Virus record (IMG/VR): IMGVR_UViG_3300035698_010598
Location: 1-42,058 of that record
Strand: one strand, 5' to 3'
DNA length: 42,058 nt
Source of the DNA: a virus
A program made the position numbers and the translations under genes. The notes beneath the pieces are model-generated. The model ran no database searches, was not told the DNA's origin, and worked only from the letters and a program-made list of their open reading frames with translations. Positions 1-42,058 of this stretch are shown here, piece by piece (within the stretch, counting starts at the first letter, position 1; every line of letters starts with the position of its first letter).

Positions 1-11
1 CTGACGGACAG
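1..11. repeat. terminal direct repeat, left copy
   Basis: The first 11 bases (CTGACGGACAG) are identical to the last 11 bases of the window (42048-42058). This suggests a contig that closes on itself, or a very short physical repeat. Eleven bases is too short to prove either, but the gene layout reads naturally across the join. Confidence 0.7.
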
Positions 12-3130: not shown

Positions 3131-3180
3131 ATATTTAAATATTAACAACCACTAAACCCTTTAAAGGAGGTATATCTAAA

Positions 3181-3447
3181 ATGAAAACAATAAAAGCAGG
3201 TAATGTATATAATGATAAAAGACAAGACTTTATTGTCATAGACAATGAATATATAGATCCTGAATTTGATGACAACCTTGTTGTGGTTGGAATGACTGTA
3301 TCTGAATTAACTGATAAAAAAGCACTTGAGTCAAGATTGAATGATCTTATCAGCGACCGGACAGGATTATCAGAATGTAATATTGACATGAATAGTATTA
3401 ATGAAGCTATTGAGTTTTTACAAGATAAAATATCTGTTATAATGTGA
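3181..3447 (+). CDS. hypothetical acidic protein
   Basis: The 88-residue product is acidic (YIDPEFDDNLVVVG) with a long C-terminal helix (ALESRLNDL through EAIEFLQDKISVIM). No family was recognised. AAAGGAGG precedes the ATG within the palindrome CCTTTAAAGG, and the same CCCTTTAAAGGAGGTAT leader stands before the next gene, so the two probably share control of translation. Confidence 0.6.
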   Translation: MKTIKAGNVYNDKRQDFIVIDNEYIDPEFDDNLVVVGMTVSELTDKKALESRLNDLISDRTGLSECNIDMNSINEAIEFLQDKISVIM

Positions 3448-3490
3448 AATAATAAAAACAAATAAACAACCCTTTAAAGGAGGTATCTCT

Positions 3491-3940: not shown

Positions 3941-4210
3941 ATGATAACACAACCAGGATTTGGAATTTATCAAAAAGAAAATAATAGCCCGTTAAAATCA
4001 GAAATAAACCATGAACCAATAGAAGGAACTCCGCATACTGGGTTCGGCTGGTGTGCTGGATGTTTACAACACCATTTTTATAACTGGTTAGAATTAAACC
4101 AAAAGGATGATCGTTGTCAAATTTGCAGCGAAAGGAGGGTTGAAATTGCTATAAATGAAGAAAGAAGAGTAGCAAAAATAATAGAAAACAGATATAAAAG
4201 CAAACGATAA
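3941..4210 (+). CDS. zinc-finger protein
   Basis: The 89-residue product has CxxC (38, 41), a HH pair (44-45) and a second CxxC (59, 62), a likely zinc-binding cluster, followed by a charged helix ending RYKSKR. AAAGGGTGG precedes the ATG. Its last eight codons and stop form the beginning of the 52-bp tandem repeat, so the repeat array grew out of this gene's 3' end. A nucleic-acid or protein-binding role is likely; no family was recognised. Confidence 0.6.
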   Translation: MITQPGFGIYQKENNSPLKSEINHEPIEGTPHTGFGWCAGCLQHHFYNWLELNQKDDRCQICSERRVEIAINEERRVAKIIENRYKSKR

Positions 4211-4342
4211 TCTAATAATAAAAAAGCAGACACTTATTAACAGATATAAAAGCAAACGATAATCTAATAATAAAAAAGCAGACACTTATTAACAGATATA
4301 AAAGCAAACGATAATCTAATAATAAAAAAGCAGACACTTATT
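4187..4342 (+). repeat. three perfect 52-bp tandem repeats
   Basis: Copies lie at 4187-4238, 4239-4290 and 4291-4342. Each starts with AACAGATATAAAAGCAAACG and includes the end of the 3941-4210 gene (last codons plus stop) and the stretch AAAAAAGCAGACACTTATT. The latter is the 5' arm of the terminator just downstream, so the array holds three possible left arms for one right arm. Confidence 0.95.
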
Positions 4343-4370
4343 AACGAAAAATAGAATAGTGTCTGCTTTT
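4326..4370. terminator. bidirectional terminator between converging modules
   Basis: The arms AAAAGCAGACACT (4326-4338) and AGTGTCTGCTTTT (4358-4370) pair perfectly over 13 bp with a 19-base loop. On the + strand the stem ends in CTTTT; on the - strand it ends in CTTTTTTATTA. It separates the rightward early module from the leftward HNH/primase genes. Bases 4371-4462 hold a CGCGCGCGATCG stretch and no gene. Confidence 0.8.
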
Positions 4371-9741: not shown

Positions 9742-10314
9742 TTATTCTTCTGTTTTCTTGACATCACTTCTGTATTCACAAAACAAATCAGAGATAGCCA
9801 TTTTTCTGATATATTCGATTGATTCTTTAACACCACCAGAACAATTTTCTATATCCAATTTTGCTACATGGTGAATCAATTGGGCTACAAGCCGGTCATC
9901 TGACTTTGCGCCAAAAGAACCACAGTGCAATGGCCAAGAAGAAAAATCAAGATTGGCATACCTGAGATTGGCAGACCTGAGATTGGCATACGTGAGATCG
10001 GCATTCCTGAGATCGGCATCCCTGAGATTGGCAGACCTGAGATCGGCATTCCTGAGATTGGCATCCCTGAGATTGGCATACGTGAGATTGGCATACCTGA
10101 GATTGGCAGACCTGAGATCGGCATCCCTGAGATCGGCATCCCTGAGATTGGCATACCTGAGATCGGCAGACCTGAGATCGGCATCCCTGAGATCGGCATC
10201 CCTGAGATCGGCATTGTTGTTTATTGCCATTTCAACACAAATCCTAAAACTTTCACATTTAAATTCAAAAATAACTTTCCCGTCCAACCGATTTTTAATT
10301 TCAAATAATTTCAT
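9742..10314 (-). CDS. pentapeptide-repeat protein
   Basis: The 190-residue protein has 18 consecutive A(D/N)LxX units (about 35-124), which predict a right-handed square beta-helix. A 34-residue head and a C-terminal helical domain (SSWPLHCGSFGAKSDDRLVA onward) flank it. Some pentapeptide proteins mimic DNA and inhibit gyrase; many have no known role. The 15-bp DNA periodicity leaves other frames open, so several ORFs here are artefacts. It lies between the ERCC4 nuclease and the helicase pair. Confidence 0.9.
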   Translation of the reverse strand: MKLFEIKNRLDGKVIFEFKCESFRICVEMAINNNADLRDADLRDADLRSADLRYANLRDADLRDADLRSANLRYANLTYANLRDANLRNADLRSANLRDADLRNADLTYANLRSANLRYANLDFSSWPLHCGSFGAKSDDRLVAQLIHHVAKLDIENCSGGVKESIEYIRKMAISDLFCEYRSDVKKTEE

Positions 10315-39503: not shown

Positions 39504-41027
39504 TTATCTTATCCTCGAATATGAAACGGCTAAACTCACACCGTGACGAATAGCATATTTTTTTGCCCTGATTAATTTGTTCCGTTCGGACTTAAACGTA
39601 CCTGTGGGTTGAGTTGAAATAATTTTTGGTGTAATAGGTCTACTCATAAACATATACCTCGTACAATCGTACCCTTCGTCTGGTTGATCCGTGTCCACAT
39701 CTTCAGGGTTTTTAGGATCTTCATATAATGCTTGTACCTCTTCCCACCATCTTTTGCAAGAATTAAACGCAACGAACTGTGGGACCTCGCTGATTAACTC
39801 CCCGGTTTCGTGGTGGATATTTTCCAAAAGGGCAAACCTTTGGTGCATTTGTTGCTTGCCACGAAGCCTGTCATTATCTGCTTTTAAAAAGTACAAACCA
39901 AACTGTGTGGCATCGTCAACAAAAGAAGGACCCAAAACCGTGTTGCTGCCTTTTATTTTTGTTGGACCCCAACACGCCGGGTCGGCGATACGCATAGTGA
40001 TTTTTTCAGTTTCTTCCAGCTTTAAAATTTCCCTGCAAATCTCATCGTTGTTTTGACGGACCCCTTTGTTCGGGTCTATCCCAACCATGCCATATTTTTC
40101 CCGATATAAATAAATTGTTCCGTCGTAGTCAACAGCGAAATACAAAGCGCACCAGGGCCTCGCATAACCCCAATCGAATATCATATACTTTTTCCATTCT
40201 GGTGGGATCTGAAAGTCTTCTGAGCCGTGTTTGAATTGGGTAAGTTCCGTGAAGACTTGACCTTCAAATATATCCCAAACACCGTCTAAGAAACGCATAC
40301 GCTCTATGGGTGGCAACATTTCAAGTCTTTTGACGTACAAAGGGTCGTTGATCATAATAGATGGATTATCATAAACCGTGGCAGGGACAAAACATTGGGA
40401 CATACCCGTGTCAGGATGAATTCTGGTTTCTGGTATTAACATTTCTCTGATAGTCTTGTCCCCGCTTACATAGTTTCTTTTTCTTGTTGGATTGCAGGGA
40501 TCAACCAGTCGTGTTTTAACCCAATTATGCCCTTTGCCGCCTGGGTTGCTTGTGGACCTTACCCGAAGCGACAATCCCGGCACCGACATTCTAACGTTGG
40601 CTATAATAAACAGATAGACCGACTCTTCAAATTCTGTTAACTCATCGAACCCTAAAAAGTGGAACTCTTTCCCGTGATAATTATATTTATCAGCTTCATG
40701 TTGGCAATGGCCCAAGGTTATTCTTGCCCCGTTCTCGAACACCCATCGGTTAGTCTTTGCAACGAACGTGCCACCAAGGGACGGGTACAACAACCAACAC
40801 CTATCTATAATTTCTTGAAGTCTTGGGAACGTTTTCCGAATTATCAGGCCATGATATTTTGGATGCCATATGTCCCGTGTGGCTTCAGCTATAAGACAAT
40901 CCGTTTTGCCTGGGCCTTTCGCGCCGCCAAAGAAAACCTCAAACTCCCCACGGGTGCAAAATTCCCACTGTGGTCCTGGATGTGGGGACCATGGCTGTAT
41001 TTCCGTGTCAGGAGAAAAATCTTGCAT
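39504..41027 (-). CDS. terL: terminase large subunit
   Basis: The 507-residue protein has Walker A GGAKGPGKT (34-42), Walker B FLGFDELTEF with DE at 128-129, and a C-terminal RNase-H-like nuclease with MIFDWGY (Asp285) and RIADPACW (Asp349). It packages DNA through the portal. The ATG shares a base with the terS stop (TAATG). Confidence 0.93.
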   Translation of the reverse strand: MQDFSPDTEIQPWSPHPGPQWEFCTRGEFEVFFGGAKGPGKTDCLIAEATRDIWHPKYHGLIIRKTFPRLQEIIDRCWLLYPSLGGTFVAKTNRWVFENGARITLGHCQHEADKYNYHGKEFHFLGFDELTEFEESVYLFIIANVRMSVPGLSLRVRSTSNPGGKGHNWVKTRLVDPCNPTRKRNYVSGDKTIREMLIPETRIHPDTGMSQCFVPATVYDNPSIMINDPLYVKRLEMLPPIERMRFLDGVWDIFEGQVFTELTQFKHGSEDFQIPPEWKKYMIFDWGYARPWCALYFAVDYDGTIYLYREKYGMVGIDPNKGVRQNNDEICREILKLEETEKITMRIADPACWGPTKIKGSNTVLGPSFVDDATQFGLYFLKADNDRLRGKQQMHQRFALLENIHHETGELISEVPQFVAFNSCKRWWEEVQALYEDPKNPEDVDTDQPDEGYDCTRYMFMSRPITPKIISTQPTGTFKSERNKLIRAKKYAIRHGVSLAVSYSRIR

Positions 41028-41389
41028 TATTCCTCAATCTTTTTAATCGAGTCGGCCGGGTCTTCTTTTTTTTGGGGTAGCATTATCCCAGGACCTTTTG
41101 TTTCTGACACCTTCAGGTTTGTATCAATTTTTTTTGTAGCGAAAATTTCTTTATAAGTTTTAAACAAAGATGCTTTCACCGCCGATTGGGTATCGTCATC
41201 ATACATCATGCCAAACGCCACCTCAAGAAAGTCTACACCATGTTTTTTTTTGAGCTTCTTGAGAACCTTGGCAACATCTTTTTTAAATTTTTCGTCATAG
41301 TCTATGGGTGGGTCTTTCTTTCTGCCCGCCCCACTTCTTGTCCCACCATGATTTGGGGTCTTGTCTTGATTCTTTGCTGTTTTGACCAT
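41027..41389 (-). CDS. terS: terminase small subunit
   Basis: The 120-residue protein begins MVKTAKNQDKTPNHGGTRSG, with the GGTRSGAGRK segment typical of small terminases, a helical centre and an acidic end. Starting at 41389, it is preceded by GGGGG; another ATG at 41401 is possible. Its first eight codons and ribosome site are duplicated at 41945-41979 upstream of the methyltransferase gene. It couples to terL and recognises the packaging site. Confidence 0.8.
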   Translation of the reverse strand: MVKTAKNQDKTPNHGGTRSGAGRKKDPPIDYDEKFKKDVAKVLKKLKKKHGVDFLEVAFGMMYDDDTQSAVKASLFKTYKEIFATKKIDTNLKVSETKGPGIMLPQKKEDPADSIKKIEE

Positions 41390-41399
41390 TTTTACCCCC
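41365..41399. repeat. 35-bp direct repeat, copy at the functional terS start
   Basis: The 35 bases, which on the - strand encode the ribosome site, ATG and first eight codons of terS, recur without mismatch at 41945-41979, 580 bases away. The methyltransferase gene lies between. On both sides the match ends abruptly (41364 T vs 41944 A; 41400 A vs 41980 T). Confidence 0.95.
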
Positions 41400-41937
41400 A
41401 TTGTTCTGCCATTGCATCTGCTATACCTTGAAAAGTTTGGGCTCTTTCTTTCGACCTGATGGAGCTCATATTGTGTACCCTTTGTACCCTTCCTGAAACG
41501 ATCTTTGTTGGTTCTATTTTTGGGAGGCCCTTTAACCACAATCCTGTTTTTTTTGTTTCTCCATGTCCAAACTGCCAAGGCTGAATATACTGATCCGGTT
41601 TCCTATAGTTTTTTGACATTATCCCAACAGGGTTTTCAATTGCAACACGACTACAATTGACAGTAACAAAAACAAGAAAAAATTTAATCCCTTCCTTTTG
41701 CCTCCCGTCTTTTCTTTTTTCATCAAACCACCTTGCCCCACTTGAACATAGATGGGTACAAGGTGGAAAGGCAATTATCATATCCCAATGTTCATCAAGT
41801 CTGTCTAAAACATCCCCTTGATAATGCAACCCTGGGATGTCTGTTGGCAAAATATCACAAGACACGGCATAGTGACCCTTCTTTTTAAAGGCTTCACGAA
41901 CCCTACCAGAATATTCACAAGCTATTAATATTTTCAT
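41392..41937 (-). CDS. cytosine-C5 DNA methyltransferase-like protein
   Basis: The 181-residue protein begins MKILIACEYSGRVREAF (SAM-binding start) and has AFPPCTHLC with the PPC motif (about 58-62) and VAIENPVGIM with ENP (about 98-106), the motif I, IV and VI pattern of C5-methyltransferases. It is shorter than a full enzyme and lacks an obvious target-recognition region; such short phage members are common and often unproven. Its stop overlaps the terS start region. The cassette is bounded by a 35-bp direct repeat, and a 10-codon terS leader is coupled to its ATG by TAATG. Confidence 0.78.
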   Translation of the reverse strand: MKILIACEYSGRVREAFKKKGHYAVSCDILPTDIPGLHYQGDVLDRLDEHWDMIIAFPPCTHLCSSGARWFDEKRKDGRQKEGIKFFLVFVTVNCSRVAIENPVGIMSKNYRKPDQYIQPWQFGHGETKKTGLWLKGLPKIEPTKIVSGRVQRVHNMSSIRSKERAQTFQGIADAMAEQWG

Positions 41938-41969
41938 TATAAAACTTGATTCTTTGCTGTTTTGACCAT
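41937..41969 (-). pseudogene. terS leader remnant (10 codons) coupled to the methyltransferase
   Basis: An ATG after GGGGGTAAAA reads MVKTAKNQVL and then stops. The first eight codons equal those of terS. The TAA shares its last base with the methyltransferase ATG (TAATG), so ribosomes starting on the duplicated terS site could reinitiate on that gene, which has no ribosome site of its own. Confidence 0.75.
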
Positions 41970-41979
41970 TTTTACCCCC
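41945..41979. repeat. 35-bp direct repeat, upstream copy
   Basis: This is identical to 41365-41399. In this copy the terS reading frame is cut after eight matching codons and meets a stop two codons later. Recombination between the copies would remove 580 bases, deleting the methyltransferase gene and leaving an intact terS. Confidence 0.95.
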
Positions 41980-41999
41980 TTTTGGTTGTTTTTTTATAC

Positions 42000-42029
42000 A
42001 AATATGGCACACCCCGCCAAAAAAATCAA
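42000..42029 (-). promoter_or_regulatory. candidate late promoter upstream of the terminase operon
   Basis: On the - strand TTGATT (42024-42029) and ATATTT (42000-42005) are 18 bases apart, followed by TATAAAAA. They would start transcripts about 25 bases before the terS leader. The match to consensus is only fair. Confidence 0.3.
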
Positions 42030-42047
42030 GTTGGTCGAGTGTCGATG

Positions 42048-42058
42048 CTGACGGACAG
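42048..42058. repeat. terminal direct repeat, right copy
   Basis: Identical to bases 1-11. Joining the ends would bring the non-coding repeat region directly upstream of the leftward terminase operon. Confidence 0.7.

Follow-up and report, generated by a model that had tools for sequence, protein, structure and literature searches.

A duplicated small-terminase start brackets a C5-methyltransferase-like gene in a phage of an uncharacterised clade

The window analyzed here, an entire IMG/VR virus record of 42,058 bases, carries a C5-methyltransferase-like gene between one genome end and the small terminase gene terS, bracketed by an exact 35-bp direct repeat of the terS translation start; judged by gene content and position, an insertion next to terS is well supported by comparison with related phages. 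The entry of single genes into compact phage operons without breakage of a neighbor is seldom visible, since the scars decay, and here the scar is intact and the ancestral position can be compared with that in relatives. The structure itself suggests an answer, namely that the neighbor’s start signal is copied, with the newcomer taking one copy and the resident keeping the other, and the comparison shows that the cos-terS stretch serves an uncharacterised clade of phages as a slot for variable cargo. The features discussed below are, in window coordinates:

1 to 11, no strand assigned: other genome end, 11 nt identical to 42048 to 42058
39504 to 41027, minus strand: TerL, large terminase subunit, 507 aa (Pfam PF03237, E 9e-9; phrog_979, E 3.5e-43)
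41027 to 41389, minus strand: terS-like small terminase subunit, 120 aa, intact (26-32% identity to relatives’ terS-position genes, GGxRxGAGRK motif, synteny with TerL)
41365 to 41399, minus strand: downstream repeat copy (copy 2), comprising the last 8 nt of the methyltransferase gene, SD and the working terS start
41392 to 41937, minus strand: inserted 181-aa C5-methyltransferase-like gene, PHROG 757 (phrog_757, E 7e-65; alignment; AlphaFold2)
41937 to 41969, minus strand: leader ORF of 10 codons, MVKTAKNQVL, plus TAA (41939-41937), from translation, with an SD energy of -12.1 at its ATG
41945 to 41979, minus strand: upstream repeat copy (copy 1), comprising SD (GGGGG), ATG and the next 22 nt of the terS frame
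42048 to 42058, no strand assigned: genome end, probable cos cohesive end, 11 nt identical to window positions 1-11 (CTGACGGACAG)

The whole arrangement (both repeat copies, methyltransferase and terS) lies on the minus strand and, read from position 42058, begins with 79 nt of end-proximal DNA, followed by copy 1 (GGGGGTAAAAATG plus 22 nt of coding sequence), the heptanucleotide TTTTATA and the methyltransferase ATG at 41937. The last 8 nt of the methyltransferase gene (GGGGGTAA) fall within copy 2, which also contains its stop codon TAA (41394-41392); the terS ATG follows at 41389, and TerL from 41027. The initial annotation had placed an exact 35-bp repeat at 41365-41399 and 41945-41979 with a spacing of 580 bp, both of which we confirm: on the minus strand the repeat consists of a strong Shine-Dalgarno (SD) sequence, an ATG and the next 22 nt of terS, and the downstream copy is, as had been proposed, the working start of an intact terS gene, whose name rests on genomic context and on homology to the terS-position genes of relatives, no family library naming it. 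The unique insert measures 545 bp (41400-41944) and begins just 7 nt before the ATG of the methyltransferase; it holds the methyltransferase ORF and no other ORF, in agreement with the earlier remark that no transposase is present.

At 35 bp this repeat surpasses all other dispersed repeats of the genome, the next ones measuring 20, 19 and 18 bp; all other repeats in the window that are neither tandem nor of low complexity are at most 20 bp long, and over 60 dinucleotide shuffles the longest exact repeat averaged 15.4 bp and was never longer than 17 bp. A search for a 24-nt core of the repeat that tolerated up to 3 mismatches found the two copies and no other site in the window (expected 0.00). 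Among the 633 control genes of the fetched loci, one is bracketed by exact repeats of at least 30 bp, a case of N-terminal module duplication; among 58 methyltransferase relatives none is, the bracketing repeats found there being a 19-bp 5'-UTR repeat (L063) and a 13-bp repeat (L008). Nor is bracketing significantly enriched in the methyltransferase family (1/58, at 19 bp, vs. 1/633 controls at 19 bp or longer): the repeat-bracketed architecture is rare and no general property of these genes.

To place the locus in an evolutionary context, relatives were sought by several routes. A TerL octapeptide search of IMG/VR returned none, a capsid scan of 84,980 prokaryote genomes likewise found no relative, and a broad TerL profile yielded large terminases of at most 39% identity with no common neighborhood, which were set aside. 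The clade itself was reached through the major capsid protein, a TerL Walker-motif pattern and a TerL clade profile, and comprises some 25-30 contigs with 55-75% capsid and 42-68% TerL identity; terS homologues with a GGxRxGAGRK-like motif lie ahead of TerL in about 20 of them, and the remaining contigs end before terS. In one contig (L188:4308-5432) an open-frame stretch of about 1.1 kb, intein-like in appearance, splits TerL at its Walker A motif.

None of the about 20 relatives in which terS and its upstream side are visible has this methyltransferase gene between the genome end and terS. Furthermore, tblastn of the clade loci detected no methyltransferase of the window’s family, and a phrog_757 search of 29 clade records, some of which are fragments where absence says little, gave no match in 26 and weak or distant C5-methylase matches in three (G015, G021 and G027, the last at 26% identity), all of them outside the cos-terS slot. 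What relatives do carry between cos and terS are different small genes (L203, L206, L207, L208, L209, L213, L214, L217, L218 and L266), with small genes also found between terS and TerL (L203 and L204); the stretch is thus a site of variable cargo in this clade. No direct repeats of 16 bp or longer accompany the cos-terS cargo genes of the other relatives, and the 35-bp repeat is not conserved at the relatives’ terS starts.

A further comparison concerns the contig ends. The two ends of the window share exactly 11 nt (chance about 2.4e-7), and relative G003 likewise has exactly 11 nt common to its ends, with a sequence that differs from the window’s. The terS-side ends of 13 clade contigs, the window and 12 others (L180, L184, L204, L217, L251-L254, L256, L257, L264 and L266), all align at the same point, save that L256 is offset by 3 nt and L254 by 6 nt; they are gap-free internally over the first ~40 nt and share a conserved TTGA ~30 nt in from the end. 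IMG/VR labels the contigs with aligned ends as linear, and several resemble complete cos genomes. Fixed ends upstream of terS, as expected for cos-type packaging, are hence seen in 13 contigs, two genomes having the 11-nt overlap, and the alignment suggests that the aligned ends are probably physical cos ends, in which case the window contig would be the full unit genome and the methyltransferase the first gene after cos. A reading of the repeat as a terminase-binding element beside cos was dropped, as the repeat is unconserved in relatives and the conserved TTGA lies outside it.

With the ends aligned, the ancestral layout comes within reach. Five relatives have a bare stretch from end to terS, with the terS ATG at nt 50, 62, 64, 84 and 89; for the first of these values the contig stops about 6 nt before the aligned end. 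Counted from the window’s genome end, copy 1 has its ATG at nt 90, a distance matching that in the bare relatives, so that copy 1 occupies the old position of the terS start, and the methyltransferase and copy 2 have been added. Together with the lack of the methyltransferase in the slot of any visible relative, these bare sites indicate that the gene was gained in the window’s lineage. The view put forward in the initial annotation, that a cargo gene was added beside terS with duplication of the terS start and with terS left intact, is thus borne out by relatives that lack the gene and by bare sites at a matching cos-to-terS distance. The comparison with relatives that it had called for extends to such bare sites; a nucleotide-exact site with a single repeat copy lies beyond these diverged phages, the closest of which has a TerL 68% and a terS 32% identical to the window’s. 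A degenerate terS-start pattern run against IMG/VR found no empty form and no contig besides the window that holds this terS start; its single match, in L088, was discarded as a chance match in a 147-kb contig. The precise excision envisaged in the initial annotation is accordingly hypothetical.

The inserted gene had been called C5-methyltransferase-like, and three lines of evidence uphold this. Residues 1-181 of its product align with positions 15-219 of the 247-position PHROG 757 profile (E 7e-65); PPC at 58-60 and ENP at 101-103 are conserved in an alignment of 44 sequences; and an AlphaFold2 model built from that alignment (mean pLDDT 87) finds its best PDB match in the C5-cytosine methyltransferase M.HaeIII (1dct, E 2.6e-5, TM-score 0.57 of query). 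By sequence, no Pfam or NCBIfam model and no PDB chain matches the protein. It thus combines the catalytic motifs with a predicted Rossmann-like, C5-methyltransferase-like fold, and with M.HaeIII and the PHROG 757 enzymes it shares family, PPC and ENP motifs and this predicted fold. M.HaeIII has 324 aa, whereas the window’s protein has 181, too few for the usual target-recognition domain between motifs VIII and IX, which, judged by length, would be absent. Sequence-specific protection from restriction consequently cannot be assumed, the anti-restriction role raised in the initial annotation is conjectural, and the protein is a putative DNA methyltransferase.

The duplicated start appears to have been put to use. 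The leader ORF opened by copy 1 ends in a stop codon that shares one base with the ATG of the methyltransferase (TAATG), and SD duplex energies are -12.1 at the leader ATG, -9.8 at the terS ATG and only -0.9 at that of the methyltransferase. The window’s methyltransferase ATG is hence without an SD, unlike those of most relatives, where the median over 72 genes is -6.35 and only 11% are at -3 or weaker. The weak SD and the overlapping stop and start favor translational coupling from the leader to the methyltransferase as the simplest reading, and copy 1 probably serves as translation start and leader for the inserted gene. The earlier description of the upstream copy as a cut-off remnant is apt insofar as it retains just the terS start, with 22 coding nucleotides, but it misses that this copy opens a leader ORF and is the probable start of methyltransferase translation. 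A consensus scan gave no excess of terminators; in the region upstream of the methyltransferase (41940-42058) it detected no promoter-like match, and the promoter-like matches within the gene are near chance level.

How the gene arrived can be reconstructed with less certainty, and we consider it reasonably probable that a PHROG-757 gene was inserted at the terS start via short-homology recombination or copy-choice, with translational coupling through the leader thereafter. In the ancestor, terS would have begun about 90 nt from cos, as is the case in several living relatives, and a PHROG-757 C5-methyltransferase-like gene would have been placed at its start either by illegitimate recombination through short homology or by copy-choice, that is, template switching. 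Synthesis would have left the phage template within terS codon 9, continued along the donor gene and come back to the phage template at the terS SD via a G-run (GGGGG) common to the SD and to the gene’s last codons, CAA TGG GGG, such that the 35 bp between the exit and re-entry points were copied twice and became the direct repeat. The upstream SD and ATG would then drive the 10-codon leader and, through coupling at TAATG, synthesis of the methyltransferase, and the downstream copy would restore terS, with the methyltransferase’s own last codons forming the terS SD. Such a route would account for the observed sequence without any transposase. A G-rich CAR-TGG-GGN 3' end is common among PHROG 757 relatives, so that a G-run able to serve in junction formation is usual for this gene; the QWG codons have an ATG within the next 17 nt in 55 of 80 relatives, and the end of the gene may often sit at the SD position of the next gene, for which tight gene packing alone could be the explanation. 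The same regularity weighs against template switching, as the G-run match is only 5-8 nt long in a family nearly always G-rich at its end; moreover, the protein closest to the methyltransferase is 67% identical, so that neither junctions nor microhomology can be checked against a donor.

A tandem duplication followed by loss would also give the identical final sequence. Here the methyltransferase would already have stood beside terS, or been captured with a second terS start, and unequal crossover would have duplicated the start, with the upstream terS later shrinking to its first codons. L051, where a 61-bp duplication of SD, start and N-terminal codons surrounds one gene, sets a precedent, but no relative has two terS genes or the window’s methyltransferase beside terS, and the 7 nt that separate copy 1 from the methyltransferase start hold nothing further of a second terS, which leaves this history rather unlikely in our judgment. 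The perfect identity of the two copies and the almost gene-sized insert would also fit a Campbell-type homologous crossover with a donor, circular or linear, in which the 35-bp terS start was already present, and would make the gene a removable cassette whose loss by recombination between the copies regenerates terS exactly. By our own calculation, though, that identity bounds divergence only to about 8%, no other IMG/VR contig holds the terS start in either donor or empty form, and the insert lacks an integrase or transposase; we regard such an integration as quite improbable.

Two further explanations would do away with the insertion altogether. Were the repeat a regulatory element, start-associated or of promoter/stem-loop type, set before several genes, one might point to two other short genes of the genome that are bracketed by SD-region repeats of 20 and 19 bp; the 35-bp element, by contrast, occurs twice only, takes in over 20 nt of coding sequence and is unconserved at relatives’ terS starts, and we give this interpretation very little weight. 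That the structure is an assembly artefact or strain chimera is scarcely credible even for a single metagenomic contig: collapse or duplication would not double just 35 bp around an intact, family-typical gene, and the contig spans the genome end to end with ends supported by 12 others.

Like the moron and other cargo insertions of tailed phages, the window’s locus has an extra single gene in one lineage that is missing at the same place in relatives, with unbroken neighbors. It is set apart by its use of the neighbor’s duplicated start and by its place in the variable cos-terS slot; a promoter-terminator pair proper to the gene did not come to light. Transposition fits poorly: the insert encodes no transposase and has no inverted repeats at its ends, and the target-site duplications of transposons and insertion sequences span about 2-14 bp vs. 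35 bp here. PeSL cassettes of T4-type phages are reportedly treated by Arbiol et al. in 2010 and Comeau et al. in 2014. In two reports, PeSLs mediate repeat-based module shuffling as mobile regulatory cassettes of T4-type phages (PMC4503421, PMC3950731), and repeated expression signals around small genes could, on that account, permit shuffling by homologous recombination. As portrayed there, PeSLs consist of promoters and stem-loops and accompany many genes, whereas the window’s repeat consists of SD, start codon and coding sequence in two copies; a PeSL reading was rejected on copy number and for want of a promoter-like site in the repeat. The SAS/ESAS of cluster K mycobacteriophages, which recur genome-wide at the starts of many genes (PMC3203893), are similar in their position at gene starts, but the window’s repeat is 35 bp long, extends into codons and is present in two copies even with up to 3 mismatches, the copy number on which this reading failed. 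Our literature search, which covered mostly sources outside subscription journals, surfaced no report of a gene whose insertion doubled the SD and start codon belonging to a terminase gene.

Repeats of several kinds occur elsewhere in these genomes. Genes 2215-2469 and 3181-3447 of the window are bracketed by exact SD-region repeats of 20 bp (2191-2210 and 2552-2571) and 19 bp (3155-3173 and 3468-3486), neither of which has further copies in the genome even with 3 mismatches, and these brackets are possibly older events of the same kind as the methyltransferase insertion. One could go further and propose that an SD-anchored route has brought genes into the phage time and again, each arrival duplicating the start of its downstream neighbor and creating start-sharing, potentially excisable single-gene cassettes, with the methyltransferase the youngest and these two genes older; we think this generalization unlikely. 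On the reverse strand of L051 (381-955), a 61-bp exact repeat (SD, start and 16 codons) gives two adjacent genes the same N-terminus, apparently through N-terminal module duplication. In the window, three head-to-tail copies of a 52-bp unit occupy 4187-4345, and the AAAAGCAGACACT of this unit could pair with AGTGTCTGCTTTT just downstream, as would a multiplied terminator arm. Dense TTGATATC-like repeats and palindromes lie at 60-330, beside the other genome end, and 9742-10314 encodes a pentapeptide-repeat-like protein (ADLRDADLRDADLR) with many internal DNA repeats.
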